Shown: positions 45,485 through 64,000 of the stretch, piece after piece
Position numbering within the stretch: position 1 is the first letter of the stretch
How the letters are laid out: each line of letters starts with the position of its first letter
Source: Gammaproteobacteria bacterium
GTDB lineage: Bacteria > Pseudomonadota > Gammaproteobacteria > Steroidobacterales > GCA-2729495
Length of the DNA: 64,000 nucleotides
Assembly: GCA_020853135.1 (NCBI GenBank)
Contig: JADYZO010000042.1
Coordinates: 29,780 to 93,779 of the forward strand
Direction: 5' to 3'
Translations under genes and position numbers: made by a program
Notes under the pieces: model-generated
What the model was told of the DNA's origin: nothing
Database searches by the model: none
What the model saw: the letters and a program-made list of their open reading frames with translations, nothing else

Positions 45485-48400
45485 CTGCCCGGGGCGAATC
45501 GCCGCCTCCCGCCGGCGCCCCGGCGGATCCCGCTGCGAGCCCGTCGCGGCTGTTCATCGAACGGCCGGTCGCCACCTCGCTGTTCATGCTGGCCATCCTG
45601 CTGTCGGGGCTGATCGCGTTGCGGCTCCTGCCATTGTCCGCGCTGCCCGAGGTCGACTACCCGACCATCCAGGTCAGCACGCTCTATCCTGGCGCCAGCC
45701 CGGACGTGATGGCGATGACGGTGACCGCACCGCTGGAGCGCCAGTTCGGGCAGATGGCCGGCCTGCAGCGGATGTCCTCGGTCTCCTCGGGCGGGGCCAG
45801 CATCATCACGCTGCAATTCGGCCTGGCGCTGTCGCTCGACGTGGCCGAGCAGGAGGTGCAGGCGGCGATCAACGCGGCAGCCACGCTGCTGCCGGGCGAC
45901 CTGCCGGCCCCGCCCGTGTATGCCAAGGTGAACCCTGCGGATGCCCCGATCATGACCGTGGCGGTGACGTCCGCCACACGCACGTTGTCCGATGTGCAGA
46001 ACCTGGTCGCCCAGCGCCTCGCCGCCAAGCTGGCGCAGGTGTCCGGGGTCGGCCTGGTCTCGATGTCCGCCGGCCAGCGCCCGGCCGTGCGCATCCAGGC
46101 GGACATGCCCGCGCTGGCGGCCCAGGGCCTGACGCTGGAGAACCTGCGCACGGCCATTGCCGGAGCCAACGCCAACGGGGCCAAGGGCAGCTTCGACGGG
46201 CCGACACGCAGCTGGTCCATCGACGCCAATGACCAGCTCGGGTCGGTCGAGCAGTACCGGGCGCTGGTCGTCGGCTTCCGGGACGGGGCGGCCGTGCACC
46301 TGTCCGACGTGGCGCGCGTCGTCGATGCGTCGGAGAACAGCCGCATCGGGGCCTGGATGAACCGGCAGCCCGGGATCATCGTCGACATCCAGCGCCAGCC
46401 CGGGGCCAACGTCATCTCCACCGTTGATGCCGTCCAGCGGGCCCTGCCGGGACTGGAACAGGCGCTGCCCGGGGACGTGCACGTCACGGTGCTGGCTGAT
46501 CGCACCACGGGCATCCGGGCCTCCGTGCGCGATGTCGGGTTCGAGCTGGTGCTGGCCGTGGCGCTGGTGGTCGTGGCGATCTTCCTGTTTCTCGGCTCGC
46601 CGCACGCCACCCTCATCGCCGCGATTTCGGTGCCGCTGTCCCTCGTCGGCAGTTTTGGCGCGATGTACCTGATGGGTTTCAGCCTGAACAACCTGACCCT
46701 GATGGCGCTGACCATCGCCAGCGGCTTCGTCGTCGATGACGCCATCGTCGTGATCGAGGACATCTCACGGCACGTGGAGGAGGGCCACAGCGCCATGCAG
46801 GCCGCCTTGCGGGGTGCCCGCGAGGTCGGCTTCACCATCATCTCCCTCACCGTCAGCCTGGTCGCCGTGCTGATCCCGCTGCTGTTCATGGGCGATGTGG
46901 TGGGCCGCCTGTTCCGCGAATTCGCCGTCTCGCTGGCGGTGACCATCCTGATCTCGGCGGTGGTGTCGCTGACACTGGTGCCCATGCTGGCGGCGCGCTG
47001 GCTGCGGCCGGCACCGGCGGCGCGTGAGCGGTCCCTGGCCCGTATCCCGCGCGATCTCCTGGCCAGCATGGCCAGGCGCTACGCGACGGCACTGGACCGG
47101 GTCCTGCTCCATCGTCCGTTGATGATGGCCGTCTTCGCCCTGACCCTGCTGGCGACGGGACTCCTGGTGTGGCTGATTCCCAAGGGCCTGTTTCCCGAGC
47201 AGGACACCGGCCAGTTGCAGGCGACGGTGATCGCGGGGCAGGACGTGTCGTTCGCGCGCATGGCCAGCCTGCAGCGCCAGGTGGCGGACATCGTCCTCGG
47301 GGATCCTGATGTCGAATCCCTGAGCTCGAGCATTGGCGTGGATGGGCGCAATGCCACCCTCAACCAGGGGCGGATGCTGGTCAACCTCAGGCCGAAGGCC
47401 GTGCGCCGTGATCCCCAGGACCAGACCATCGCGCGGCTGCTGCAGGCCGTCCGCGCGCAGGCCGGCGGGATCGGCTTTTACCTGCGGCCGGTGCAGGACC
47501 TGACCATCGATGCCGAAGCTGGCCCCACCCAGTATCGCTTCGCCGTGCAGGGTGCCGGCCGGGGGGAGGTCGACCGGTTCAGCCAGGCACTGGCGCGGAC
47601 CTTGCGCGATGCGCCCGAAGTCCGCAATGCCGTCAGCGATGTGCAGACGCAGGGCAAGGCCATCTACATCAGCGTGGACAGGGATGCCGCGGCGCGCGTG
47701 GGGGTGACGGCGGCGGCGGTGGATGCCGCGCTCTACGACGCCTTCGGCCAGCGGATCGTCTCCACCATCTTCACGCCGTCCACGCAGGAGCGGGTGATCC
47801 TGGAGGCATTTCCCGATGCACGGGCCGGCCCGGAGATGCTGCAGGAGGTGCATCTGGCCGGGAGCGGCGGCGCCGTCGTGCCGCTGACGGCGATCGCCAC
47901 CATCAGCACCGGTTCTGCGGCACTGGCCGTGGTGCGCGCCGGGCAGTTCCCCGCCTCGACCATCGGCTTCGACCTGGCGCCAGGTGTCTCCCTCGGCAGG
48001 GCCGTGGGGGCCATCGCCGGGGTGGCCGCGAAGATGGGTCTCCCGGCGGGCCTCACCCTGCAGTTCCTCGGCGCATCGAGCGCGTTCCAGGCTTCGCTCG
48101 CGAACGAGGGCTGGCTGATCCTGGCGGCCATCGTCTGTGTCTACATCACGCTCGGCGTCCTGTACGAAAGCTATGTCCATCCCCTGACCATCCTCTCCAC
48201 GCTGCCGTCGGCCGGGCTGGGCGCCCTGCTGGCCCTGCTCATCGCGGGCAATGACCTGGGCGTGATCGGCATCATCGGCATCGTGCTGCTGATCGGCATC
48301 GTCAAGAAGAACGCGATCATGATGATCGACTTCGCCATCGCCGCGCAGCGCGGGTCGGGGCTGGCCGCGGAAGCCGCGATCCGGGATGCCGCGGCGCTGC

Positions 48401-48633
48401 GTTTCCGCCCGATCATGATGACGACGTTCGCGGCGCTGTTCGCGGCCATACCGCTGATCCTCGGCGGCGGCATGGGCTCCGAGCTGCGCCAGCCGCTGGG
48501 CATCGCGGTGGCCGGCGGGCTGGTCATGAGCCAGGCGCTGACGCTGTTCACCACGCCGGTCATCTACCTGGTGTTCGAGGACTGGACGGCGCGCCTGCGC
48601 GGGGCGGGCGGGCGGCACCGGCCCGCGGCATGA
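45481..48633 (+). CDS. RND efflux permease (MdtB-like)
   Basis: Twelve-TM RND pattern: ALPEVDYPTIQVSTLYPGASPDVMAMTVTAPLERQFGQM; GIVLLIGIVKKNAIMMIDFA. Confidence 0.95.
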   Translation: MTARGESPPPAGAPADPAASPSRLFIERPVATSLFMLAILLSGLIALRLLPLSALPEVDYPTIQVSTLYPGASPDVMAMTVTAPLERQFGQMAGLQRMSSVSSGGASIITLQFGLALSLDVAEQEVQAAINAAATLLPGDLPAPPVYAKVNPADAPIMTVAVTSATRTLSDVQNLVAQRLAAKLAQVSGVGLVSMSAGQRPAVRIQADMPALAAQGLTLENLRTAIAGANANGAKGSFDGPTRSWSIDANDQLGSVEQYRALVVGFRDGAAVHLSDVARVVDASENSRIGAWMNRQPGIIVDIQRQPGANVISTVDAVQRALPGLEQALPGDVHVTVLADRTTGIRASVRDVGFELVLAVALVVVAIFLFLGSPHATLIAAISVPLSLVGSFGAMYLMGFSLNNLTLMALTIASGFVVDDAIVVIEDISRHVEEGHSAMQAALRGAREVGFTIISLTVSLVAVLIPLLFMGDVVGRLFREFAVSLAVTILISAVVSLTLVPMLAARWLRPAPAARERSLARIPRDLLASMARRYATALDRVLLHRPLMMAVFALTLLATGLLVWLIPKGLFPEQDTGQLQATVIAGQDVSFARMASLQRQVADIVLGDPDVESLSSSIGVDGRNATLNQGRMLVNLRPKAVRRDPQDQTIARLLQAVRAQAGGIGFYLRPVQDLTIDAEAGPTQYRFAVQGAGRGEVDRFSQALARTLRDAPEVRNAVSDVQTQGKAIYISVDRDAAARVGVTAAAVDAALYDAFGQRIVSTIFTPSTQERVILEAFPDARAGPEMLQEVHLAGSGGAVVPLTAIATISTGSAALAVVRAGQFPASTIGFDLAPGVSLGRAVGAIAGVAAKMGLPAGLTLQFLGASSAFQASLANEGWLILAAIVCVYITLGVLYESYVHPLTILSTLPSAGLGALLALLIAGNDLGVIGIIGIVLLIGIVKKNAIMMIDFAIAAQRGSGLAAEAAIRDAAALRFRPIMMTTFAALFAAIPLILGGGMGSELRQPLGIAVAGGLVMSQALTLFTTPVIYLVFEDWTARLRGAGGRHRPAA

Positions 48634-51600
48634 ACCTCTCGGCGCCATTCATCCGGCGGCCGGTCGGCACCACGCTGCTGACGCTCGGCATCGCCCTGTC
48701 CGGCGTAGCGGCATTCACGGTGCTGCCGGTGGCACCGCTGCCGCAGGTCGATTTCCCGACCATTTCCGTGTCAGCCAGCCTGCCCGGCGCCAGCCCGGCC
48801 ACCATGGCCGGCAGCGTGGCGGCGCCCCTGGAGAGGCGCCTGGCGACGATCGCCGGGGTCACCCAGCTGACGTCCGCGTCCGGGATCGGTGCGACGCAGA
48901 TCATCCTGCAGTTCGACCTGGGGCGCGCGATCGACGGGGCCGCCCGTGACGTGCAGGCGGCAGTCAACGCCGCGCGCGCCGACCTGCCAGCGGCGCTGAA
49001 GACGAACCCGACCTACAACAAGGTGAACCCGGCCGATGCGCCGATCATGATCCTCGCGCTGACCTCGCCAACAAGGACGGCCGATGCCATCTACGATGCG
49101 GTGTCGACCGTGATCCAGCAGGCCCTGTCCCAGGTACCCGGCGTCGGCCAGGTGGAACTGGGGGGCGGCGCACTGCCGGCCGTGCGCATCGACATCGACC
49201 CGGAGAAACTGGCGAGCGCCGGCATCGGCCTCGAGGAGGTGCGCACGGCGGTGGCCGCGACCAGTGCCAGCCGGCCCCGCGGCCTGGTGGAGGGCGGCGG
49301 CAATGCCTACCAGCTCTACACCAGTGCACCCAGCCGGTCGGCGCGTGATTTCGCGCAGGTCGTCGTCGCGACCCGCAATGGCGTGAACGTGCACCTGGGC
49401 GAGGTGGCCCGGGTCAATGAGGGTCCGGAGAACATCCAGACGCTGGGCCTCTTCAATGGCCGGCGCGCGGTCACGGTGATCCTCAGCCGCCAGCCGGGGG
49501 CGAACATCATTGCCACCGTCGATGCGATCAGGCAGGCACTGCCCGGCCTGCGCGCGCGCATACCGGCGGACATCAGGCTGGAGATCGCCTCGGACCGGAC
49601 CACCACCATCCGCGCCTCCCTGCACGAGATCGAGATCACGCTCCTGATCGCCACCGTGCTGGTGGTGCTGGTCGTCAGCGTGTTCCTGCAGTCGTGGCGG
49701 GCGACCCTGGTGCCGGCCGTGTCGGTGGTGGTTTCCCTGCTGGGTACGCTGGGCCTGATGTACCTGCTGGGCTTCTCGCTCGACAACCTGTCGCTGATGG
49801 CGCTGACCATCGCCACCGGTTTCGTGGTGGACGATGCCATCGTCGTCCTGGAGAACATCAACCGGCACGTCGAGGCCGGGATGGACCGGATCAGTGCGGC
49901 ACTGCAGGGCGCGCGGGAGGTGGGCTTCACGGTGGTGGCGATCAGCACCAGCCTGGTCGCGGTCTTCATCCCGCTGCTGTTCATGGGCGGGCTGGTCGGT
50001 CGGCTGTTCCGCGAGTTCGCGGTCACCATGACGGTGGCCGTGATGATCTCCATGGTGCTGTCCCTGACCACGACACCCATGATTGCCGCCGTGGTCCTGC
50101 GCAACGGCGGTGCCGCTGCCCCCGGCGCGGCGCGCCTTGCCGCGCTGGCAGGGCGTGGCATGAGCAGGTTGCGCCAGTTCTACGCGCGTTGCCTGGACTG
50201 GGCGCTGGGCAATCGCGGGGCGGTCCTGCTGCTGTTGCTGGGTGCCATCGCCCTCAACGGCTATCTGCTGGCGGTCGTGCCGAAGGGATTCTTCCCGCAG
50301 CAGGATACCGGGGCACTGAATGGCGGGCTGCGCCTCGACCAGTCGGCCTCTTTCGCCGCCAGCGGCGCCAAGCTCAGGCAGCTGGTGGACATCCTGCGTG
50401 CGGACCCGGCCATCGAGAACGTCACGGCCTTCACGGGCGGCTCCCGGGCGGGCGGCGGCTTCGTGTACGCCACCGAGAAACCGCGCGGGCAGCGTCCGTC
50501 CACACAGGAGGTGATCCAGCGGCTGCGCCCGCGGCTGGCGCAGGTCACCGGGGCAAGCCTGTTTCTCAACCCGGTCCAGGACATGCAGATCGGCGGGCGT
50601 GGCGCGAACTCGACCTACCAGTACACGCTCAAGGCCGATGACTCGGCGGACCTGGCGACGGGCGCGCAGATGCTGACACAGGCGCTGAAACAGGACCCGC
50701 TGCTGGTCGATGTCGATGTCGACCGGTTGAGCAGCGCGGTATCGGCATACCTGGACATCGATCACGCAGCGGCGGCGCGGCTGGGGCTGGCGAGCACCGG
50801 CATCGATGCCACCCTCTACGATGCCTTCGGGCAGCGGCAGGTGGCGACGCTCTACAGCGATGTCAACCAGTATCACGTGGTCATGGGCGTGGCCAGCCAG
50901 GCGCGCACCTCACCGCAGGCCTTCGACCTCATCTACCTGCCGGCGGCGGGTAGTGCCTCACCCGCCGGTGCCACCGGCATTGGCCTTGCCCCGACCGGCA
51001 TGGCGCCGCTGTCGGCGCTTGCCACCTGGCACGTACAGTCCGCGCCAGGACGGGTGAACCACCAGGATGGCATGCCGGCGGCCACCATCAGCTTCAACCT
51101 TCCGCCCGGGGTGACGCTCGGCCAGGCGACCGGGGAGATCGGCCGGGTGCAGGCCAGTCTCCCCCTGCCCCCGGGCGTGCACGGGCAGTTTGCCGGCACG
51201 GCGCAGGTGTTCCAGCAGACCACCAGTTCCATCCCGTTGCTGATCCTGGCCGCCTTGCTGACGATCTACCTGGTGCTGGGCATCCTCTACGAGGACCTGC
51301 TCCATCCGCTCACGGTGCTGTCCACGCTGCCTGCGGCTGGCGTGGGTGCGGTGATCGCCCTGCTGCTGACCGCGACCCAGTTCGACCTGATCGGCCTGGT
51401 GGGCCTGATCCTGCTGATCGGCATCGTCAAGAAGAACGCGATCATGATGATCGACTTCGCCATCGAGGCCGAGCGGCGGGGTGAGCCGGCGGTGGCGGCG
51501 ATCCGCGCAGCAGCGTTGCTGCGGTTGCGCCCGATCCTGATGACGACGCTGGCCGCCGGGCTCGGTGCCCTGCCCCTGGCGATCGGCTTTGGCGACGGCT

Positions 51601-51776
51601 CGGAGCTGCGTCGCCCGCTCGGCATCACCATCATCGGGGGGCTCGTGGCCAGCCAGTTCCTCACGCTGCTGACGACGCCGGTGGTGTACCTGGCCCTGGG
51701 GCAGCTGCGCCGCCCGCGACAGCCGGGACGCGATGGCGCCGGATCACCCATCCCCTCCAGGCCGGTGCCGGCATGA
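48630..51776 (+). CDS. RND efflux permease (MdtC-like)
   Basis: Second RND permease, LPQVDFPTISVSASLPGASPATMAGSVAAPLERRLATIAGV; LILLIGIVKKNAIMMIDFAIEAER. Confidence 0.95.
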   Translation: MNLSAPFIRRPVGTTLLTLGIALSGVAAFTVLPVAPLPQVDFPTISVSASLPGASPATMAGSVAAPLERRLATIAGVTQLTSASGIGATQIILQFDLGRAIDGAARDVQAAVNAARADLPAALKTNPTYNKVNPADAPIMILALTSPTRTADAIYDAVSTVIQQALSQVPGVGQVELGGGALPAVRIDIDPEKLASAGIGLEEVRTAVAATSASRPRGLVEGGGNAYQLYTSAPSRSARDFAQVVVATRNGVNVHLGEVARVNEGPENIQTLGLFNGRRAVTVILSRQPGANIIATVDAIRQALPGLRARIPADIRLEIASDRTTTIRASLHEIEITLLIATVLVVLVVSVFLQSWRATLVPAVSVVVSLLGTLGLMYLLGFSLDNLSLMALTIATGFVVDDAIVVLENINRHVEAGMDRISAALQGAREVGFTVVAISTSLVAVFIPLLFMGGLVGRLFREFAVTMTVAVMISMVLSLTTTPMIAAVVLRNGGAAAPGAARLAALAGRGMSRLRQFYARCLDWALGNRGAVLLLLLGAIALNGYLLAVVPKGFFPQQDTGALNGGLRLDQSASFAASGAKLRQLVDILRADPAIENVTAFTGGSRAGGGFVYATEKPRGQRPSTQEVIQRLRPRLAQVTGASLFLNPVQDMQIGGRGANSTYQYTLKADDSADLATGAQMLTQALKQDPLLVDVDVDRLSSAVSAYLDIDHAAAARLGLASTGIDATLYDAFGQRQVATLYSDVNQYHVVMGVASQARTSPQAFDLIYLPAAGSASPAGATGIGLAPTGMAPLSALATWHVQSAPGRVNHQDGMPAATISFNLPPGVTLGQATGEIGRVQASLPLPPGVHGQFAGTAQVFQQTTSSIPLLILAALLTIYLVLGILYEDLLHPLTVLSTLPAAGVGAVIALLLTATQFDLIGLVGLILLIGIVKKNAIMMIDFAIEAERRGEPAVAAIRAAALLRLRPILMTTLAAGLGALPLAIGFGDGSELRRPLGITIIGGLVASQFLTLLTTPVVYLALGQLRRPRQPGRDGAGSPIPSRPVPA

Positions 51777-53188
51777 AGCCAGTCCGGCATCTGTTCCGTG
51801 GTGCGCTGGCGCTTCTGGCCGCCAGTGCCGTCGCCTGCAGCCTCGTGCCCGCCTACCAGCGGCCCGAGGTGAAGATTCCCGCCAGTTTCAGGGAAGCGCC
51901 GGCGTACTGGGGCACTGCCACGCCGGCAGATGACCAGCCGCGGACTGCCTGGTGGCAGGCCTTCGACGATCCGGTGCTGGATGCCCTGGAGGTGGAGGCC
52001 ACCGCCAGCAACCAGGGCATCGCCGCGGCACTGGCCGCCTACGATGGGGCGCAGGCCGTCGTGCGTGGCTCGCGCGCCGACCTCTGGCCCGGCGTGACGG
52101 CCGGCATCGGGACGACGCGTGCGGGCGGCAGCGGCCTGAGCGGGCCGGCGCGCCGGGCCACGGCATCGGTCAATGCCAGCTGGACGCCCGACCTGTTCGG
52201 CGGTCTCCGCGCGGCGGTTGCGCAGGACCAGGCAGCGGCCCTGGCTTCGCGCGCCAGCCTGGGAAACGTGCTGCTGGCCATCCACGCGGAGGTCGCCAGC
52301 GACTATCTGCTGCTGCGCGGGCTTGATGCCCAGCTCGATGCCTACCAGGCCACCATCACCGGATATCGGCGGGCCGTGGCGATCACCGCCAACCGCTATC
52401 GTGCCGGCGTGGCGCCACACGCGGACCTGCTGCAGGCCGAGACCACCCTGCACGACGCCAGTGCGCAGCTGCTGGAGATGCAGCGCCAGCGTGCGGTGCT
52501 GGAGCATGCGCTGGCGATGCTCCTCGGGCATCCGCCCGCGGACTTCAGCCTGGTCGGGCAGGCATGGGCCGCACGGATTCCGCCGGTGCCGGCCATCCTG
52601 CCCTCGGAGCTGCTGCAGCGGCGTCCGGATGTTGCGGCGGCCGAACGCGACGTGATGGCGACCAATGCGGCAATTGGCGTACAGCGGGCGGCCTGGTTTC
52701 CGTCGCTCGGCGTGACGGGCAGCAAGGGGCGCAGCGCGCAGACGCTCGGTGATCTCGGGAGCGAGGGCAGCGCGGTGTGGTCGCTGGGCGTGACCGGCCT
52801 CATCACACTGCTGGACTGGGGCGGGCGTTCAGCCCGGGTCGACCAGGCCAGGGCAGCCTACCGGCAGGCGGTCGCCAATTATCGCCAGGTGGTGCTCGGC
52901 GCCCTGCAGCAGACGGAGGATGGTCTGGCGGACCTGTCGAGCTATGCCGGGCAGGCGGGGGAACTCGAAGCCGCCTCGGCCGCAGCGGACAAGGTCGAGC
53001 AGATGATGCTGAACCAGTATCTGGCCGGTGTTGCCGATTACACCGCCGTGGTCACCGCCCAGAACACGGCGCTGGCGGCGCGGCGCGCGGCGATTGCCGC
53101 GACGGTCCAGCAGCAACAGGCGGTGGTCGCCTTGACCCAGGCCATCGGCGGTGGCTGGGATGATCGCCTGCCGCCGGCGGGACGCTGA
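51773..53188 (+). CDS. NodT-family outer membrane efflux lipoprotein
   Basis: Lipoprotein signal; TolC-like repeats; ELLQRRPDVAAAERDVMATNAAIGVQRAAWFPSLGVTGS. Confidence 0.94.
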   Translation: MKPVRHLFRGALALLAASAVACSLVPAYQRPEVKIPASFREAPAYWGTATPADDQPRTAWWQAFDDPVLDALEVEATASNQGIAAALAAYDGAQAVVRGSRADLWPGVTAGIGTTRAGGSGLSGPARRATASVNASWTPDLFGGLRAAVAQDQAAALASRASLGNVLLAIHAEVASDYLLLRGLDAQLDAYQATITGYRRAVAITANRYRAGVAPHADLLQAETTLHDASAQLLEMQRQRAVLEHALAMLLGHPPADFSLVGQAWAARIPPVPAILPSELLQRRPDVAAAERDVMATNAAIGVQRAAWFPSLGVTGSKGRSAQTLGDLGSEGSAVWSLGVTGLITLLDWGGRSARVDQARAAYRQAVANYRQVVLGALQQTEDGLADLSSYAGQAGELEAASAAADKVEQMMLNQYLAGVADYTAVVTAQNTALAARRAAIAATVQQQQAVVALTQAIGGGWDDRLPPAGR

Positions 53189-53211: not shown

Positions 53212-55632
53212 TCAGACCGCCTGCACCAGCACCATGCGACGCACCATGGCGAGGTCGGCTGCGGCGGTGTAACGGCCGGCCCATTCGCTGAAGGCCTCGG
53301 CTGGCATCGGCCGGCTGATATGGAAGCCCTGGGCCTGCTCGCAGCCGTGGGCGGCCAGCCACTGCAGCGCAGGCGCCGATTCGACCCCTTCGGCCACCAC
53401 CTCCAGCCCGAGGCTGTGTGCGAGGTCGAGCACGGTGCGGATGATGGCCGCATCGCCCTGGTCCCGGGGCAGTTCCATGACGAAGGAGCGGTCGATCTTC
53501 AGTTCGTCGACGGGCAGATGCTTGATCCGTGCCAGCGACGAGTAGCCGGTGCCGAAGTCGTCGATGGAGACTCGCACGCCGAGGTCCTTCAGGCCCTGCA
53601 GCACCGCGGTCGCCCGCGAGAAATCCCGGACCAGCGCCTCTTCGGTGAGCTCCACCGTGAGGTGGCGTGCCGGCAGGTCATGGTCGCGCAGCAATTGCAG
53701 GATGAACAGCGGGAGGGTCTCGTCACGCAGGTCGCGGCTCGCGAGGTTGACGGCGATGGAGAGGTCGAGGCCTTCCTCGACCCACAGGCGGCACTCGCGC
53801 ACGGCGGCCGTCAGGGCCCAGCGGGTGACCAGGGAGATGTTGCCGAACTGCTCGGCCACGCCGATGAAATCGCCGGGCAGCAGCCAGCCGAAGGCCGGGT
53901 GGTCCCAGCGCACCAGGGCCTCGGCACCGCACACACGGCCATCGGCCAGCGAGATCTTCGGCTGCAGGTAGAGCTTCAGCTCGTCGTGGCGCACCGCGCG
54001 GCGCAGGTCGCCGAGGATGGCCAGCTGGCGCACGCGGCGTTCCTCCTGGCCATCCTGGTACAGGTGCAGGGGTTCCTGCAGCTTGTGGGCGTCATTCTTC
54101 GCGACGGTGGCGCGCAGCAGCAGCTGGTCGGCGTCCTGGCCATGCTCCGGGTAGAGGGCCATGCCCACCACGGCGTCGAGGCTGATGTTGATGTTGCGCA
54201 CCGAGAGCCCGAGCCCCAGCAGGCGCAGCAGGTCCTCGGCCAGTTCGCGGGCGGCGTCGAGGCCCAGTCCCTCGAGGATGACCAGGAACTCGTCGCTTTC
54301 CAGCCTGGCCACCGTGTGGTGCGCATCGGCGCTGGCCCGCAACCGCTCGCCGACCTGCGACAGCAGCGCATCGCCGATGTCGTGGCCAAGGGTGGCGGCG
54401 ATGTCATCGAAGTTGCCGAGGTCCATGACGAGCAGGCTCACCGGTCGTCCGGCGGTACCGGCGCGCTGCACGGCCTCCCTGAGCTGCTCCAGGGCCAGCA
54501 GCCGGTTGGGCAGTCCGGTGAGGGCATCGAACCGGGCCTGGTAGGTGATGCGCTCCTCGCGCTCCGCGATGCCGCCCTGCATGGTGTTGAAGGCGGCGGC
54601 CAGCACGCCGAACTCGTCGTCCGCGCTGACGCGCACCGTGTGGCTGTAGTCGCCGTTGCGGACGCGGGCGGCGGCATCGGCCAGTTCGCGCAACGGGTGG
54701 ACCATGGTGCGGGCGAGCACGGCGGCGCCTGCCAGGGCTGCCAGCAGGGCGAACATCCCGACGCCGAGTGCCGACCAGCGCAGCACCCGGTAGGGCGCCA
54801 GCGTCTGGTCCATGGACTGGAACAGGAGCGCCTGGACCCCGGTGGGTCCCGGCAGCAGCGTCTTCATCACCGCCAGATAGTCGGTTCCGGCGATGCGCAG
54901 CCTGAGTGCGGCATCGGGCCCCGCGGCGGCAAGTTGCTGCTGCAGCAGGGCCGGGTCGATGCCCGGCAGTGAGGTGCCAGCCAGCTCGCTGTGCCCGGCC
55001 GGGCCGGTGAGGAAGGCGATGTCCTGCCCGCCGAGCTGCGCGGTGCGCTGTGCCCGTGCATCACCGAGCCGCAGACCCATGGACAGCCAGCCGGTCGCGT
55101 GGCCAGCCGGTCCGCCGACGGGGATGCTCGTCATCGTGTAGCTGATGCCCCCGCTGCTGAGCACACGGCGCATGGCATCGTGCCCGGTGGCCGACTCCGC
55201 CAGCTGGGGCAGTTCCGCGGGCAGCGGTCCGTCCCGGTTCAGCCCGGCGAGCACATGCCCGTTTCCGTCGGCCAGCACGGCAAGGTCGGCGTCGATGCGC
55301 GAAGCGACGCGGGCGAGCATTCGCGACAGGGTGTCATGCTCACCGCGGGCCAGGGCAGCCTCGAAGTCGTCGTCGCCGGCGAGCATGTACAGGACGTCGG
55401 CTGCCTGCTCCGAGCGCAGCCTCATGATGCGTTCGAGCACGGCTCCGGCCCTGGCCAGGTCGGTGCGCGTGCGCTCCTGCGCGTCGTGGCTGGCTGCCAG
55501 GAGCACGGTGCCGATCGTGCCGGCCAAGGTCAGCACCACCAGCAGCACGGCAAGCGCGAAGATCTTGTAGCGAAGGCTCCGCATCGAGGCGGCCTGCGGC
55601 CGCTCTCCCGGATCAAGTGGGCCCGATGACAT
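53212..55632 (-). CDS. Membrane sensor GGDEF/EAL protein (start may be ATG 55584)
   Basis: Periplasmic sensor and HAMP segment, degenerate GGDEF (LESDEF), intact EAL (EALVRW, ELTEEAL, DDFGTGYSS, DELKIDRSF, AEGVES). Confidence 0.93.
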   Translation of the reverse strand: MSSGPLDPGERPQAASMRSLRYKIFALAVLLVVLTLAGTIGTVLLAASHDAQERTRTDLARAGAVLERIMRLRSEQAADVLYMLAGDDDFEAALARGEHDTLSRMLARVASRIDADLAVLADGNGHVLAGLNRDGPLPAELPQLAESATGHDAMRRVLSSGGISYTMTSIPVGGPAGHATGWLSMGLRLGDARAQRTAQLGGQDIAFLTGPAGHSELAGTSLPGIDPALLQQQLAAAGPDAALRLRIAGTDYLAVMKTLLPGPTGVQALLFQSMDQTLAPYRVLRWSALGVGMFALLAALAGAAVLARTMVHPLRELADAAARVRNGDYSHTVRVSADDEFGVLAAAFNTMQGGIAEREERITYQARFDALTGLPNRLLALEQLREAVQRAGTAGRPVSLLVMDLGNFDDIAATLGHDIGDALLSQVGERLRASADAHHTVARLESDEFLVILEGLGLDAARELAEDLLRLLGLGLSVRNINISLDAVVGMALYPEHGQDADQLLLRATVAKNDAHKLQEPLHLYQDGQEERRVRQLAILGDLRRAVRHDELKLYLQPKISLADGRVCGAEALVRWDHPAFGWLLPGDFIGVAEQFGNISLVTRWALTAAVRECRLWVEEGLDLSIAVNLASRDLRDETLPLFILQLLRDHDLPARHLTVELTEEALVRDFSRATAVLQGLKDLGVRVSIDDFGTGYSSLARIKHLPVDELKIDRSFVMELPRDQGDAAIIRTVLDLAHSLGLEVVAEGVESAPALQWLAAHGCEQAQGFHISRPMPAEAFSEWAGRYTAAADLAMVRRMVLVQAV

Positions 55633-55769: not shown

Positions 55770-56498
55770 ATGCGCCAGCGGTTGCGATTCCAGATTGCCG
55801 CACAACCTGACGAGGTCAGCTGCGGACCTGCCTGCCTGCACGGCATCTACCAGTTCCTGGGCGACGACATCAGTCTCGCGGAGGTCATCGGTGGCGTCGA
55901 CATGCTCAGCAGCGGCGGCGGTGGCACGCTGGACGTCTTCCTCGCCAACCATGCGCTGGCGCGCGGCTATCGCGCCACGCTCTACACCTACAACCTGCAC
56001 CTGTTCGACCCGACCTGGGCCCTGCTGCCGGTGCCCGACCTGATCGGCCGGCTGCGCGCGCAGGCCGAGGCCAAGGAGGATGCCAAGCTGCGCCTGGCCA
56101 GTGCGGGCTACATCCGCTTCCTCGAACTGGGCGGCCAGTTGCGGTTCGAGGACCTGCGCCCGGCGCTCGTGCGGCGCATCCTCGGCCGCGGCGTGCCGGT
56201 CATGACCGGACTCTCGGCCACCTACCTTTACCAGGCACGCCGCGAGATCCCGGAGACCTGCGCCGCCGATGACGTGCGCGGCCAGCCCGCGGGACATTTC
56301 GTCGTCCTGTCGGGTTATGATCGTGCCACCAGACTGGTCGACATCGCCGACCCCTACGAATGGAATCCCATCAGCGGGCAGCGCTATTACTCGGTGGACC
56401 TGCACCGGCTGATCGGCGCCGTGTTCCTCGGCAGCCTGACCTATGACGCCAACCTGCTCGTGATCGAGGTGCCAAGGCGCCGCCGATGGCTACGCTGA
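55770..56498 (+). CDS. C39-like cysteine peptidase
   Basis: QPDEVSCGPACLHGIYQFLGDDISLAEVIGGV (Cys and upstream Gln), GHFVVLSGYDRATRLVDIADPYEW (His, Asp); GGAGG-like RBS before ATG. Confidence 0.85.
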   Translation: MRQRLRFQIAAQPDEVSCGPACLHGIYQFLGDDISLAEVIGGVDMLSSGGGGTLDVFLANHALARGYRATLYTYNLHLFDPTWALLPVPDLIGRLRAQAEAKEDAKLRLASAGYIRFLELGGQLRFEDLRPALVRRILGRGVPVMTGLSATYLYQARREIPETCAADDVRGQPAGHFVVLSGYDRATRLVDIADPYEWNPISGQRYYSVDLHRLIGAVFLGSLTYDANLLVIEVPRRRRWLR

Positions 56499-57946
56499 TC
56501 GTGGTGGACGAGCCGCGGGACTGGCCCCTGCAGATCCCGTCGGCCGAGGTGGTGTCCGCGCGTGCCTACCTGACCGAGGCGCGCTTCAGCGCCCTGCGCC
56601 GGCCGCGGGTGTACAACCTCTGCGAGTCCTACGCCTATCAGGCGACGGGCTATTACGTCTCGCTGCTGGCCGAAGCCCGCGGCCACCGGCCGCTGCCCGA
56701 CGTGCTGACGATGCAGGACATCAAGTCCCCGGCGCTGATCCGTCCCACCGAGGAGCTCGAGGAACTGATGCAGCGTGCGCTGCAGGACATGGCCGAGGAA
56801 CGCTTCGAGCTCGGGGTCTACTTCGGCCACCATCCCGAGCCCCGCTTCCAGCGCCTGGCCCAGGCGCTGTTCAACCTGTTTCCGGTGCCCCTGCTCAAGG
56901 CGAGCTTCCTCAGGCGGCCGAAGTGGCGCCTGCAGGGCCTGCGGCCGATTCCGGTGGGCGACATCCCGGACGCGCAGCGCGAGTTCTTCCGCGGCGCCAT
57001 CGAGCAGCACTTCGCGCGGCGCATGCCGACGCCGAAGTCGCCCGCGCTGCGCCACGAACTGGCGATCCTCGCCAATCCGGCCGATCGCTCGCCACCCTCG
57101 GATCCCCCGGCGCTGCGCCGCTTCGAGCGGGCCGCCGAGGCCCATGGCTTCGAGGTGGAGATCATCGGCCCTGACGACTTCGGCCGGCTCGCCGAGTTCG
57201 ACGCGCTCTTCATCCGCGAGACGACCCAGGTCAACCACCATACCTATCGTTTCGCGAGCCGCGCCCGGGCCGAGGGGCTCATCGTCATCGACGACCCGGA
57301 CTCCATCGTCCGCTGCGCCAACAAGGTGTACCTGGCCGAGCTCATGACGCGCCTCGGCATTCCGACGCCGCGTACCGTCATCGCGCACCGCAACAACATC
57401 GAGCGCGTGGCCGGCGAACTCGGCCTGCCCTGCGTGCTCAAGCAGCCCGACAGCAGCTTCTCCCAGGGCGTGGTCAAGGTGCAGGATGCCCTGCAGCTGC
57501 GTACCGCGTTGCGCCAGCTCCTGGAGCGCAGCGACCTGGTGGTGGCCCAGGAGTTCGTGCCCACCTCCTTCGACTGGCGCGTGGGCGTGATCGATCGACG
57601 GGCGCTCTACGTCTGCCGTTACTTCATGGCACGCAACCACTGGCAGATCTACAAGCAGCAATCCGGCGGCAAGATGACTGGCGGGCGCTGGGAGACGCTG
57701 CGCGTGGAGGATGCACCGCCCGGCGTCGTCGAGCTCGGGCTGCGGGCCGCCAATGCCATCGGCGACGGCTTCTACGGGGTCGACATCAAGGAACTCGACG
57801 GCCGCTACGTGGTGATGGAGGTCAACGACAACCCGAGCGTGGAGCGCGGTGTCGAGGACCAGGTGCTCGGCGATGCGCTCTACGAGGCGGTGATGCAGGT
57901 TCTGCGCACCCGGCTCGAAGCCGCCCGTGCGGGCAACGGCCGCTGA
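56486..57946 (+). CDS. RimK-like ATP-grasp ligase with N-terminal RLAN-type domain
   Basis: LPCVLKQPDSSFSQGVVKVQ, VAQEFVPTSFDWRVGVIDRRALYVCRYFMARNHWQI, GVDIKELDGRYVVMEVNDNPSVERGVED. Confidence 0.92.
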   Translation: MATLIVVDEPRDWPLQIPSAEVVSARAYLTEARFSALRRPRVYNLCESYAYQATGYYVSLLAEARGHRPLPDVLTMQDIKSPALIRPTEELEELMQRALQDMAEERFELGVYFGHHPEPRFQRLAQALFNLFPVPLLKASFLRRPKWRLQGLRPIPVGDIPDAQREFFRGAIEQHFARRMPTPKSPALRHELAILANPADRSPPSDPPALRRFERAAEAHGFEVEIIGPDDFGRLAEFDALFIRETTQVNHHTYRFASRARAEGLIVIDDPDSIVRCANKVYLAELMTRLGIPTPRTVIAHRNNIERVAGELGLPCVLKQPDSSFSQGVVKVQDALQLRTALRQLLERSDLVVAQEFVPTSFDWRVGVIDRRALYVCRYFMARNHWQIYKQQSGGKMTGGRWETLRVEDAPPGVVELGLRAANAIGDGFYGVDIKELDGRYVVMEVNDNPSVERGVEDQVLGDALYEAVMQVLRTRLEAARAGNGR

Positions 57947-57954
57947 GCGGGCCC

Positions 57955-59193
57955 ATGCTGCAGCTGTTCCAGGGTTTCGGCATCGAACTGGAGTACATGC
58001 TGGTCGATGCCGGCACCCTTGATGTGGCCCCGCAGGCCGACTGGTTGCTGGCTGCGGCGGCGGGCAGCCCCACCGACCAGTACCTGGACGGGGAACTGGC
58101 CTGGGACAACGAACTCGCGCTGCATGTCGTCGAATTCAAGCTCGTGGAACCGGCACCGGCGCTCGCGGGGCTTGCCGGCCGCTTCCATGCCGGGATCGGG
58201 CGGGCCAATGCGCTGCTGGCCGGCCGCGGCCTGGCGCTGATGCCCTCGGCCATGCACCCCTGGATGGACCCGCTGCGGGAGTTGCGGCTCTGGCCCCACG
58301 GCAACCGCGAGGTCTACGCCGCCTTCGACCGCATCTTCTCCTGCCAGGGCCACGGTTGGGCCAACCTGCAGAGCATGCACATCAACCTGCCCTTCGCCGA
58401 TGACACCGAATTCGCCGCCCTGCATGCCGCAGTGCGCTTCCTGCTGCCGGTGATGCCGGGGCTCGCGGCCAGTTCGCCGGTCATGGACGGGCGGCTGAAC
58501 GGCACCGCGGACAACCGCCTCGCCGTCTATCGCGGCAACTGCCGACGCATCCCCTCGGTGACCGGCGCGGTGGTGCCCGAGCCGGTCTACGGCATCGGCG
58601 AATACCAGGACCGCATCCTCGGGCGCATCTATGCCGACCTTGCACCGCACGATCCGCAGGGCGTGCTGGCACAGGAATGGGTCAACGCCCGGGGTGCGAT
58701 CGCCCGCTTCGAGCGCATGGCCCTGGAGATCCGCGTGCTCGATGTCCAGGAGTGCCCGCGCATGGACCTGGCCTTCGCGCAGGTCATCGTCGCGACGCTC
58801 AGGTCGCTGTGTGCCGGGGCCCACTGCGACCTGTCGTCGCTGCAGGGCTGGCGCACCGAAGGGCTCGCCCGTTATCTCGACGCGGCCATCGCCGGTGCCG
58901 AGCGCACCGAGGTCCACGACAGCCGTTACCTCGCCGCGCTGGGCTACCGTGGCAGGAGCGCCCGGATCGGGCAGCTGTGGGGTTTCCTGGCCGAGCAGGC
59001 GGCCGTGGCAGGCGCGCTCGACCCCGATGCCGGGCGTGCCCTGGAGCACTACCTGCGGCATGGCACGCTCGCCACGCGCATCACGGCTGCGCTGCCGGAG
59101 GAGCCCGCCCGCGCGGAACTGGAGCGCGTGTATCGTGATCTCTGCCAGTGCCTGGCCATGAACGAGCCCTATGCCGCGCCCGCGCGCCGTTGA
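57955..59193 (+). CDS. GCS2-type carboxylate-amine ligase (glutamate-cysteine ligase-like)
   Basis: FGIELEYMLVD, VVEFKLVEP, LQSMHINLPFADDTEF, NGTADNRLAVYRGNCRRIPSVTG, ALEIRVLDVQECPRMDLA. Confidence 0.87.
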   Translation: MLQLFQGFGIELEYMLVDAGTLDVAPQADWLLAAAAGSPTDQYLDGELAWDNELALHVVEFKLVEPAPALAGLAGRFHAGIGRANALLAGRGLALMPSAMHPWMDPLRELRLWPHGNREVYAAFDRIFSCQGHGWANLQSMHINLPFADDTEFAALHAAVRFLLPVMPGLAASSPVMDGRLNGTADNRLAVYRGNCRRIPSVTGAVVPEPVYGIGEYQDRILGRIYADLAPHDPQGVLAQEWVNARGAIARFERMALEIRVLDVQECPRMDLAFAQVIVATLRSLCAGAHCDLSSLQGWRTEGLARYLDAAIAGAERTEVHDSRYLAALGYRGRSARIGQLWGFLAEQAAVAGALDPDAGRALEHYLRHGTLATRITAALPEEPARAELERVYRDLCQCLAMNEPYAAPARR

Positions 59194-59962
59194 ACGGCGG
59201 CGGCAGGCGCCGCTGCGGCTGCTGCTGACCTGCGAGCATGGTGGCAACCGCGTGCCGGAGCGGTACCGGCGGCTGTTTGCCGGCCGGGCGCGCCTGCTCG
59301 CCTCGCACCGGGGACTGGACATCGGGGCGCTGGACCTGGCGCGCGGCCTGGGCCGGCGGCTCGACGTGCCGCTGGTGGCCGCGACCGTCACCCGGCTGCT
59401 GGTCGATCTCAACCGTTCCATCGGCCATCCGGGGCTGTTCTCTGCGCCGTCCAGGTCGCTGCCGGCCGCCGGGCGCGAACGGGTGCTCTCGTGTCACTAC
59501 CACCCCTATCGCCGCCTGGTGCATGGCTGGATCGCGAGCCGGGTCTCGCGTGGTGAGCGCGTGCTGCACATCTCGGTGCACTCGTTCACGCCGGTGCTCG
59601 ACGGGGAACGGCGCAACGCCGACATCGGCCTGCTCTACGACCCCGCGCGCGTGGCGGAGGCCACGCTGTGCCGCGCATGGCAGCAGGAGTTGTCAGCCTG
59701 TGCGGCGGGCTGGCGGGTGCGGCGCAATTACCCCTATCGCGGCACCGGTGACGGGCAGGTGGTGGAATTGCGGCGGCGGTTTGCCGGCGGGTGCTATCTA
59801 GGCATCGAACTGGAGGTCAACCAGGCGTGCCTGCAGGAGCCGGCCCGCGCGGCGACCCTGCTGGCCGACCTCGCCCGTACGCTGCCGGCTGGCGATGGCG
59901 CGCCATCACGGGCGGCCGCTGGCGGACGGGCTAGTGCGGTGGAGCGCGCCGCCGCCGGATGA
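59171..59962 (+). CDS. N-formylglutamate amidohydrolase-like protein
   Basis: LLTCEHGGNRVPERYRRLF, VDLNRSIGHPGLFS, VLHISVHSFTPVLDGERRNADIGLLYDP. Confidence 0.9.
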   Translation: MPRPRAVERRRQAPLRLLLTCEHGGNRVPERYRRLFAGRARLLASHRGLDIGALDLARGLGRRLDVPLVAATVTRLLVDLNRSIGHPGLFSAPSRSLPAAGRERVLSCHYHPYRRLVHGWIASRVSRGERVLHISVHSFTPVLDGERRNADIGLLYDPARVAEATLCRAWQQELSACAAGWRVRRNYPYRGTGDGQVVELRRRFAGGCYLGIELEVNQACLQEPARAATLLADLARTLPAGDGAPSRAAAGGRASAVERAAAG

Positions 59963-60083
59963 GTTCGCCGAGCACCGGCCAGACCGGCAGCAGCGCACCG
60001 AGCACGATCAGGCTCCAGTGGGTGACGAGGCCGAGCAGCACCAGGAAGATGCTGGCGGCGATGGCGAGGGACCAGCTGCCCAT
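59931..60083 (-). CDS. 50-aa predicted small membrane protein
   Basis: MGSWSLAIAASIFLVLLGLVTHWSLIVLGALLPVWPVLGELIRRRRAPPH*, two hydrophobic segments and a basic tail; not in the ORF track because of size; weak RBS. Confidence 0.45.
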   Translation of the reverse strand: MGSWSLAIAASIFLVLLGLVTHWSLIVLGALLPVWPVLGELIRRRRAPPH

Positions 60084-60138: not shown

Positions 60139-61950
60139 TCAGGTGCCGGTGGCCGGGACGGGCTGTGCCTCGACGGCGCCAAACTGCAACTCGGCCAGGT
60201 GCGCGTAGAGCGGCTCGCGCGCCACCAGCTCGTCGTGGGTGCCCACCCCGACGATGCGCCCGCGGTCCATCACCACGATCCGGTCGGCCTTGAGCACGGT
60301 GGCGAGCCGGTGGGCGATGATGATCGTGGTGCGGTTTTCCATCAGGTGATCGAGCGCCTCCTGGACCAGCCGCTCGTTCTCCGAGTCGAGCGCGCTGGTG
60401 GCCTCGTCGAGCAGCAGGATCGGCGGGTTGCGCAGGATGGCGCGGGCAATCGCGATGCGCTGGCGCTGCCCGCCCGACAGGCGTGTGCCGCGCTCGCCGA
60501 GGAAGGTGTCGTAGCCCTGCGGCAGTTCGCTGATGAATCCGTCGGCGACAGCGGACCGGGCCGCTGCCTCGACCTCGGCGTCGGTGGCCGACGGCCGCCC
60601 GAAGCGGATGTTGCCGCGCGCGGAGTCGCCGAAGATCACCGTTTCCTGCGGCACGAGACCAATGCGCGAGCGCAGTTCCGCCGGGTCGGCCCGGGCGATG
60701 TCCACGCCGTCGACGAGGATGCGTCCGGCCTGTGGGTCGTAGAAGCGCAGCAGCAGCTGGAAGGTGGTGCTCTTGCCCGCGCCCGAGGGGCCGACGAAGG
60801 CCACGCGTTCCCCCGGGCGGATCTCCAGCATGAAGCCCTCGAGCGAGCGCCGGTCGGGGCGCGAGGGGTAGCTGAAGCCGACGTCCTCGAAGCGGATATG
60901 GCCCCTGCCCGGCGCGGGCAGGGGCCGGGCATCCGCCGGCTTGCGCACGGCAGGCCGCGCATCGAGCAGTTCCACCATGCGCTCGGTCGCGCCCGCCGCG
61001 CGCTGCACCTCGCCCCACATTTCGGTGAGCGTGCCCGCCGAGGTTGCAGTGAACATGGCGTACAGCAGGAACTGGGCCAGCTCGCCGTAACTCATGTCGC
61101 CGGCCAGCACCGCCCGCGCGCCCACCCAGATGACGAAGGTGATGCCGCCGAACACCGCGACGAAGGTGACGAAGGTCATGACCGCCCGCACCCGGGTGCG
61201 GGTGATGGCGGTGGCGAAGCTGGCCTCCACCGCGGCACGGAACCGCTGCGACAGCACGGGTTCCGCCGTGAAGGCCTGGACGATCTGCACGGCGTTGAGC
61301 GACTCGCTGGCGAGTGCGCTGGTGTCGGCGATGCGGTCCTGCGAGGCGCGCGAGAGGCTGCGCACCTTGCGGCCGATGAGGATCACCGGCGCCATGACCG
61401 CCGGGATGAACAGCACGATCACGCCCATCAGCCGGATGTTGGTCAGTGCCAGCAGCACCAGCGCGCCTGGCAGCTGCACCAGCGAGCGCAGCACCATCGA
61501 GAAATTGACTCCGGCGATGGACTGGATCAGCGTCGTGTCCGCGGTGAGCCGCGAGAGCACCTCGCCGGTGCGCGTCACCTCGAAGAAGGCGGGGTCGAGC
61601 CGGATGACGTGCGAGTAGACCCGGTCGCGGATGTCGGCCACCACGCGCTCGCCCACCCACGACAGCAGGTAGTAGCGCAGCGCGGAGCAGGCGCAGAAGG
61701 CCACCACCACCACCGCGAAACCCGCGAAGTAGAGGTTGATCCGTGCACTGCCGCCGGCGGCGAAGCCGTGGTCGATGACATACTTCCCGGCCACCGGCAG
61801 CGACAGCATCAGGCCTGAGGCTGCGAGCAGGGCAAGTATCGCCAGGGTGAGCGTCCCGCGGTAGGGACGCAGGTAGGGCAGCAACTCCAGCAGCGGGCGC
61901 AGCGACCGCCCCCGGGGGCGGTTGCGTGCTTCCTCTTCCGGGGTCGCCAC
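60139..61950 (-). CDS. ABC exporter, fused TM and ATPase domains (MsbA-like)
   Basis: Walker A GPSGAGKST, signature LSGGQRQRIAIARA, Walker B ILLLDEATSALD; six-TM ABC exporter N-terminus. Confidence 0.94.
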   Translation of the reverse strand: MATPEEEARNRPRGRSLRPLLELLPYLRPYRGTLTLAILALLAASGLMLSLPVAGKYVIDHGFAAGGSARINLYFAGFAVVVVAFCACSALRYYLLSWVGERVVADIRDRVYSHVIRLDPAFFEVTRTGEVLSRLTADTTLIQSIAGVNFSMVLRSLVQLPGALVLLALTNIRLMGVIVLFIPAVMAPVILIGRKVRSLSRASQDRIADTSALASESLNAVQIVQAFTAEPVLSQRFRAAVEASFATAITRTRVRAVMTFVTFVAVFGGITFVIWVGARAVLAGDMSYGELAQFLLYAMFTATSAGTLTEMWGEVQRAAGATERMVELLDARPAVRKPADARPLPAPGRGHIRFEDVGFSYPSRPDRRSLEGFMLEIRPGERVAFVGPSGAGKSTTFQLLLRFYDPQAGRILVDGVDIARADPAELRSRIGLVPQETVIFGDSARGNIRFGRPSATDAEVEAAARSAVADGFISELPQGYDTFLGERGTRLSGGQRQRIAIARAILRNPPILLLDEATSALDSENERLVQEALDHLMENRTTIIIAHRLATVLKADRIVVMDRGRIVGVGTHDELVAREPLYAHLAELQFGAVEAQPVPATGT

Positions 61951-62351: not shown

Positions 62352-64000
62352 TCAGGCCGGCTGGCGCGAGGCGCGCTTGCGGTCGCTCTCGGTGAGCAGC
62401 TTCTTGCGCAGGCGGATGCTGCCGGGGGTGACTTCCACCAGCTCGTCGTCGTCGATGAACTCCAGCGCCTGCTCCAGCGAGAAGCGGACCGGTGGCGTCA
62501 GCAGGATGTTCTCGTCGGAACCGGCGGCGCGGATGTTGGTCAGTTGCTTGCCCTTGGTGGGGTTCACCACCAGGTCGTTGCCACGGCTGTGGATGCCGAG
62601 GACCATGCCTTCATAGACCGCCTCGCCGTGGCCGATGAACAGCCGGCCCCGCTCCTGCAGGTTGAAGAGTGCATAGGCCAGGGCCTTGCCGGCCATGTTG
62701 GACACCAGCACGCCGTTGATGCGCTGGCCGATGGCCACCGGCACGCGGGGCGCATAGCGCTCGAAGACGTGGTAGATCAGGCCCGTGCCCGAGGTCGCGG
62801 TCAGGTATTCGGTGCGAAAGCCGATGAGGCCGCGGGCCGGGATGCGGTAGTCCAGGCGCAGCCGCCCGCGGCCGTCGGGCTGCATGGCGAGCAGCTCGCC
62901 CCGCCGCTCGGCGATGCGGCTCATCACCGCGCCCTGGTATTCCTCGGCGAAGTCGACGGTCAGCTGCTCCCAGGGCTCGCAGCGCACGCCGTCCACCTCG
63001 TGCTCGATGACCTCCGGGCGCGAGACGGCCAGCTCATAGCCCTCGCGGCGCATGTTCTCGATCAGGACGGAGAGGTGCAGCTCGCCGCGGCCGGAGACCT
63101 TGAACTTGTCGGCGTCCTCCGTCTCCTCCACCCGCAGCGCCACGTTGTGCAGCAGCTCCTGGTCGAGGCGCGCGCGGATCTGGCGGCTGGTGAGGTACTT
63201 GCCCTCGCGGCCCGCAAACGGCGACTTGTTCACCTGGAAGGTCATGCTGATGGTGGGTTCGTCCACCTGCAGCGGCGGCAGGCCCTCCGGCACGTTGCGG
63301 TCGCAGATGGTGTCGGAGATGCGCAGCTCCTCCACGCCGCTGAAGGCGACGATGTCACCTGCGGTGGCGGCCTGCACCGGCGTGCGCTTCAGCCCCATGA
63401 AGCCATAGAGCTCGCCGAGCCGTGCCTGGCGGGTACCACCGTCGGCAGCCACCACGCTGATGGCGGTATTGGGCGTGATGGTGCCGCGGGTCACGCGGCC
63501 GACGCCCAGCACGCCGACGTAGGAGTCGTAGCCGAGGCTCGAGACCTGCAGCTGCAGCGGCCCGTCCACATCCACCGCCGGCGGCGGCACGTGCTCGACG
63601 ATGGCCTCGAACAGCGCGGTCATGTCCCCGGCCCGCACGTCGGCCCTGCGGCCGGCGTAGCCGTTGAGCGCCGAGGCGTAGATCACCGGGAAATCCAGCT
63701 GCTGGTCCGTGGCGCCGAGGCGGTCGAACAGGTCGAAGGTCTGGTCCAGCACCCAGTCGGGCCGGGCGCCGTCGCGGTCCACCTTGTTGATGACCACGAT
63801 GGGCGTGAAGCCACGGGCGAAGGCCTTCTGGGTGACGAAGCGGGTCTGCGGCATGGGCCCGTCGACCGCATCGACCAGCAGCAGCACGCTGTCCACCATG
63901 GACAGCACGCGCTCGACCTCGCCGCCGAAATCGGCGTGGCCCGGGGTGTCGACGATGTTGATGCGCCAGTCGCGCCAGCGGATGGCGGTGTTCTTGGCGA
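62352..64000 (-). CDS. typA: Translational GTPase TypA/BipA (N-terminus outside window)
   Basis: [47 protein letters not shown]-type C-terminus; reading frame stays open to the window edge. Confidence 0.96.

Follow-up and report, generated by a model that had tools for sequence, protein, structure and literature searches.

Which reaction, or sequence of reactions, is carried out by four tightly packed genes encoding both amide-forming and amide-cleaving enzymes? The question is raised by a 64,000-nucleotide (nt) stretch of DNA, hereafter the window, from a gammaproteobacterium of the Steroidobacterales (assembly GCA_020853135.1, contig JADYZO010000042.1, positions 29,780 to 93,779). On its + strand, a stand-alone C39/papain-like thiol enzyme (55770-56498, 242 amino acids (aa); Pfam Peptidase_C39_2, 3e-7) is followed by a ligase composed of RLAN, pre-ATP-grasp and RimK-type ATP-grasp domains (56486-57946, 486 aa; RLAN, PF14401, 4e-45; RimK, PF08443, 6e-8), a divergent GCS2-family carboxylate-amine ligase (57955-59193, 412 aa; Pfam GCS2, 2e-25) and a predicted zinc amidohydrolase of the FGase family (PF05013; 59171-59962, 263 aa; Pfam FGase, 3e-24). 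A first-pass annotation had described four adjacent genes that overlap or nearly touch, and a direct check of the coordinates reproduced its junctions exactly (a 13-nt overlap, an 8-nt gap and a 23-nt overlap, in gene order). Its assignment of two amide-forming and two amide-cleaving enzymes is likewise borne out by the Pfam matches and by active-site positions that are invariant or nearly so in homologue alignments of all four families. None of the four proteins scored above a curated NCBIfam cut-off. A GGAGG motif lies immediately 5′ of the ATG of the C39-like gene, and a search of the cassette stretch found no promoter- or terminator-like site, which is compatible with a single transcript.

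The four genes are co-conserved far beyond this genome. On the RLAN side, 94 loci were profiled with hidden Markov models (HMMs); they derive from 59 relatives and from a scan across 85,462 species genomes in which 80 of at least 577 relatives were retained. The loci are not all independent, L029 being the window itself and L030 lying on the same contig as L024. All four genes were found at 47 of these loci, the C39-like, RLAN and GCS2 genes at 27 and the RLAN gene alone at 11, while the remainder carried C39 with RLAN (4), GCS2 with RLAN (4) or GCS2 with RLAN and FGase (1); contig ends make some of these counts too low, and the HMM overlooked at least one FGase gene (L097), which Pfam found. 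The order is invariably C39-RLAN-GCS2-FGase, with median spacings of 1.5, 14 and 10 nt, and full cassettes occur in at least 12 phyla, as taken from the titles of the sequence records (Pseudomonadota, Planctomycetota, Bacteroidota, Balneolota, Verrucomicrobiota, Nitrospirota, Thermodesulfobacteriota, Myxococcota, Ignavibacteriota, Fibrobacterota, Omnitrophota and Gemmatimonadota). Chance cannot plausibly account for the recurrence of the same genes, in the same order and at such tight spacing, at loci from many phyla, and the presence of one set in one order in at least 12 phyla indicates that the cassette is probably a complete small pathway. Planctomycetota and Pseudomonadota each fall at several places in the RLAN tree, which suggests horizontal spread of the cassette.

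As a check against the circularity of sampling from the RLAN side, a second search was started from GCS2. Among 369 gammaproteobacterial genomes, it returned 17 strong matches, all below 1e-89, with the next match at 4e-5, a break that identifies the cassette GCS2 as a sharply bounded family. One of the 17 is the window's own genome; in the 16 others, GCS2 is accompanied by an adjacent RLAN gene in 15, by FGase in 15 and, where the contig permits the comparison, by C39 in 13 of 15. The linkage first noticed in the window is thus seen from either starting point. An additional case is found in Legionella adelaidensis, where the genes are annotated as RimK family protein, glutamate-cysteine ligase family protein and N-formylglutamate amidohydrolase. 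This species also supplied the sole plasmid match (L170, NZ_LR134436.1, "plasmid 27"), which looks chromosomal (fur, bamE, ratA, dapF), and plasmid mobility was rejected.

A GCS2 enzyme paired with an ATP-grasp ligase formally parallels GshA and GshB, and the locus could accordingly be read as a second site of ordinary glutathione synthesis, a concern that the first-pass annotation had itself raised. However, the host genome encodes one canonical GshA (6.9e-150) and one GshB (1.8e-66), both on other contigs, and the cassette GCS2, the sole PF04107 gene of this genome, is far from other GCS2 proteins of the Pseudomonadota (91 bits versus about 168 to 360 for other full-length members) and below the NCBIfam cut-off for YbdK/GshA-type GCS2 (TIGR02050, 49 bits versus 176). 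Because GshA and GshB are encoded separately and the subfamily is distinct, the cassette GCS2 is not the host's glutathione enzyme; the concern falls away, and glutathione synthesis was rejected as extremely improbable. Residues E11, E13, E60, N144, R188 and R246 are invariant in 44 homologues, and in a Foldseek search the AlphaFold (AF2) model (pLDDT 96.2, pTM 0.95) retrieved plant glutamate-cysteine ligase (GCL; 2gwc) and YbdK (1r8g/1tt4) first, with Dop and PafA further off.

The most telling label among the cassette domains is the N-terminal RLAN domain of the ATP-grasp ligase, which the first-pass annotation had overlooked. In the ligase, K280, K319, D433, E445 and N447 are invariant in 44 homologues, while E356 is variable in 6 of the 44 rows. 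The nearest solved folds to its AF2 model (pLDDT 88.6) are ArgX-LysW, RimK-RpsF and LysX, the whole-chain Foldseek alignment covering about 310 of the 486 columns, which correspond to the ATP-grasp part and leave the RLAN part outside. RimK models of NCBIfam score under their cut-offs (TIGR00768, 78.7 versus 143 bits; NF007764, 23.6 versus 331). A 490-aa "rimK" of Francisella (FTT0178), the deletion of which caused no loss of virulence in mice (PMC2675058), is a candidate RLAN protein by its length.

The Cys-His-Asp triad proposed for the C39-like enzyme was located at C18-H176-D194, with Q12 as the oxyanion residue; H and D are present in all 40 homologues and C in 39, the remaining row being gapped. 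As previously described, the protein carries neither a signal (by eye, no hydrophobic one is apparent at its N-terminus) nor a fused ABC domain. With no conserved small precursor peptide nearby, this 242-aa stand-alone protein was rejected as a bacteriocin C39 exporter protease. The family is homologous to DUF3335 (PF11814) along 158 columns, with the catalytic Cys, His and Asp among them (hhalign probability 97, E-value 2.6e-11). In the FGase-like hydrolase, E22-H23, H46, D50, N81-R82 and H137 are invariant in 31 homologues, and the sequence matches 2odf (1.8e-37) and 2q7s. The earlier label, N-formylglutamate amidohydrolase-like, stands as far as the fold family (PF05013) is concerned and goes no further, as no NCBIfam model, HutG included, was matched, and the neighbours are cassette genes rather than a hut operon. 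The Asn-Arg pair resembles the pair that binds the free carboxylate in M14-type carboxypeptidases, and N81-R82 is presumably its equivalent.

RLAN genes also occur in a second setting. In a sample of 30 RLAN loci, taken from 29 genomes of Pseudomonadota with most genera represented once, a GNAT gene was found beside RLAN at 29 loci, and a GNAT-DUF3335 fusion was detectable by query in 19. Such fusions of DUF3335 to GNAT are frequent (PMC10318531, citing Iyer et al. 2009). No GCS2 or FGase gene was present at the 30 loci and no RLAN-associated GNAT at 79 GCS2-bearing loci; hence the two settings are mutually exclusive. A tree of 122 RLAN proteins splits according to setting, with a support of 99 on the main branch, and a few GNAT-associated genes within the cassette clade (L036, L063, L067, L070, L100, L090 and L037) point to later exchanges between settings. 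Because the settings exclude each other and DUF3335 is homologous to the cassette C39 with its catalytic residues aligned, the ligase and the papain-like thiol enzyme look like a common core to which an exchangeable amine-acylating enzyme, GNAT or GCS2, is added.

Several individual loci of interest were recorded in this comparison. At L134:6056-8056, the RLAN ligase and a GNAT match share one open frame, a possible fusion, beside a separate GNAT-DUF3335 gene. A DUF2817 gene, of an M14-like family, lies near some GNAT-type operons (L028:9562-10797, L129:10085-11218 and L133:3249-4397) and is possibly the counterpart of FGase there. In a planctomycete, a fusion of GNAT and a carbon-nitrogen hydrolase is placed between GCS2 and FGase (L065:12751-14337). 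In a Verrucomicrobia bin, argG, GNAT, the RLAN ligase, a pyridoxal phosphate-dependent decarboxylase of the Orn/DAP/Arg family and dapA follow one another (L090:738-6270), a cluster that may connect an RLAN ligase with the metabolism of arginine or lysine.

The neighbours of the cassette differ from lineage to lineage. Neighbour clustering and Pfam scans of 30 adjacent open reading frames (ORFs), many of them high-GC frames without a family among which partners could be missed, gave no constant extra partner. A small-ORF search near cassettes yielded no carrier protein, precursor peptide or conserved small gene, Pup included, apart from lineage-specific ones; no co-conserved target gene was found near cassettes and no linkage to rpsF was seen there. 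Next to the cassette, major facilitator superfamily (MFS) transporters were seen in two separate planctomycete pairs; others lie close to two RLAN genes of the GNAT type. This hints weakly at the export of a small product. Anti-phage defence was rejected, none of the four proteins matching a PADLOC defence model.

Taken together, there is about an even chance that the cassette serves both the synthesis and the turnover of a small peptide of the gamma-glutamyl type, distinct from glutathione, through a putatively self-contained, horizontally spread, cytoplasmic four-enzyme pathway. Like GshA, GCS2 would use ATP to activate the side-chain carboxylate of glutamate and couple it to an amine, and the RLAN ligase would activate a carboxylate on this intermediate and add a further amino acid, as do GshB, RimK and LysX. 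The FGase-like amidohydrolase would remove a C-terminal residue, opposing the ATP-grasp step, while the C39-like enzyme may cleave or transfer an acyl group, much as the papain-like phytochelatin synthase acts on glutathione. Since no carrier, precursor or constant target is encoded nearby, free amino acids are favoured as substrates, and a small peptide pathway is preferred because the neighbours vary between lineages, no small conserved gene accompanies them and MFS transporters give a weak sign of export. Supporting this proposal, gene order and spacing are fixed, adjacency is also found from the GCS2 side and the host GshA and GshB are encoded elsewhere. The modelled GCS2 fold appears closest to gamma-glutamylcysteine ligases and YbdK, the ATP-grasp part matches RimK, LysX and ArgX, and the exchangeable GNAT and GCS2 both acylate amines. 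Other observations weigh against it. To our knowledge, no substrate has been described for any cassette member, and the nearest characterised ATP-grasp relatives use proteins (RimK on RpsF) or carriers (LysX and ArgX on LysW), not free dipeptides. The additional RLAN domain is not covered by any RimK-type structure, FGase and C39 are absent from some cassettes, hence not every step is obligatory, and the MFS linkage is restricted to certain lineages.

Part of this evidence would also suit a protein-tagging cycle, in which a target protein receives amino acids from the RLAN ligase, at a side chain or at its C-terminus, GCS2 attaches the tag or gives it branches, and the C39-like and FGase-like enzymes trim it. 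The ATP-grasp fold is indeed nearest to RimK-RpsF and ArgX-LysW, the GCS2 fold is also related to PafA, which acts with Pup, and to Dop, and RimB of Pseudomonas takes off glutamates added by RimK (PMC12239564). Tagging is nevertheless rather unlikely, given that cassettes lack a co-conserved target gene or Pup-like protein in their vicinity and that gamma-glutamylcysteine ligases and YbdK are closer to GCS2 in fold than PafA/Dop are. The likeness to LysX and ArgX complexed with LysW could instead reflect biosynthesis on a LysW- or acyl carrier protein-like carrier encoded elsewhere, with the C39-like enzyme as an acyltransferase of the BtrH type (butirosin) and one hydrolase in deprotection. 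The acyltransferase BtrH is papain-like and related to C39 (PMC10318531), and the RLAN gene of the argG-dapA cluster described above belongs to the cassette clade; however, this context is a single case and no carrier gene lies near any cassette, which makes the carrier explanation improbable.

The juxtaposition of two amide hydrolases and two ligases, together with a patchy occurrence, in 17 of the 369 gammaproteobacterial genomes, would be compatible with salvage or repair. In this view, unusual isopeptides or gamma-glutamyl compounds would be degraded by the hydrolases and a useful product restored by the ligases, without any dedicated metabolite being made. Yet both ligases are kept more consistently than FGase, which would be odd for a degradative route, and this explanation is quite improbable.

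Around the cassette, the window contains a run of tandem RND efflux genes that ends with one for an outer membrane efflux protein (45481-53188, +; ACR_tran confirmed for the first gene), and a HAMP-GGDEF-EAL protein (Pfam; 53212-55632, −) that is divergent from the cassette and recalls the EAL protein RimA found beside RimK in Pseudomonas. A link to cyclic di-GMP through this gene was rejected, as none recurs beside cassettes outside the genus. A 50-aa hydrophobic ORF overlaps the end of the FGase gene (59931-60083, −) and has downstream, opposite-strand homologues in other members of the genus. An ABC exporter half-transporter (60139-61950, −) and a TypA/BipA GTPase (62352-63908, −) lie downstream, convergent with the cassette.

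Related operons were probably noted by Iyer et al. 2009, very likely the comparative genomics of amidoligases mentioned in the first-pass annotation, and the Pfam RLAN entry reportedly lists both GNAT-papain fusions and GCS2 in the neighbourhood of the domain. A full-text literature search, in which that work was not covered, turned up no paper on this four-gene set. What looks new here is the existence of two mutually exclusive RLAN settings with a shared ligase and papain-like core. A fixed-order set of four enzymes with intact active sites and no assigned product, in at least 12 phyla, points to one unrecognised reaction sequence. If the small gamma-glutamyl-type peptide is real, a widespread metabolite has been masked by generic annotation names. 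A bolder and so far doubtful possibility is a small peptide cofactor or protectant, parallel to but independent of glutathione, in 12 or more phyla, some groups among them being presumed glutathione-free, a compound of which the GNAT-type operons would make an N-acetylated counterpart.

Known systems resemble the cassette in part. LysX and ArgX, which act with LysW, have the closest ATP-grasp fold in the PDB, whereas no LysW-like carrier is encoded near the cassette. Among the butirosin side-chain genes, the ATP-grasp enzyme is BtrJ. Its combination with the papain-like BtrH (PMC10318531) is similar to that of the cassette, which lacks the acyl carrier protein, decarboxylase and aminoglycoside genes. 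In Pseudomonas, the RimK-RimB/rlo operon also pairs a RimK-type ligase with an opposing amide hydrolase, but its hydrolases are retropepsin-like and neither GCS2 nor RLAN was reported (PMC12239564). Pupylation by PafA/Dop differs in that no Pup-like conserved small protein is found near the cassette and the GCS2 fold is nearer to GCL and YbdK. Glutathione synthesis combined with phytochelatin synthase offers a likeness at the fold level, with a GCS-fold ligase, an ATP-grasp ligase and a papain-like enzyme acting on the peptide; however, the subfamilies are distinct and RLAN and FGase have no counterpart. The GNAT-type RLAN systems, for which the literature search found no report of a product, share with the cassette an RLAN-ATP-grasp ligase adjoining a homologous papain-like domain and differ in that GNAT, often on the opposite strand, replaces GCS2 and FGase, a contrast that opens the common core and the replaceable enzyme to independent tests.

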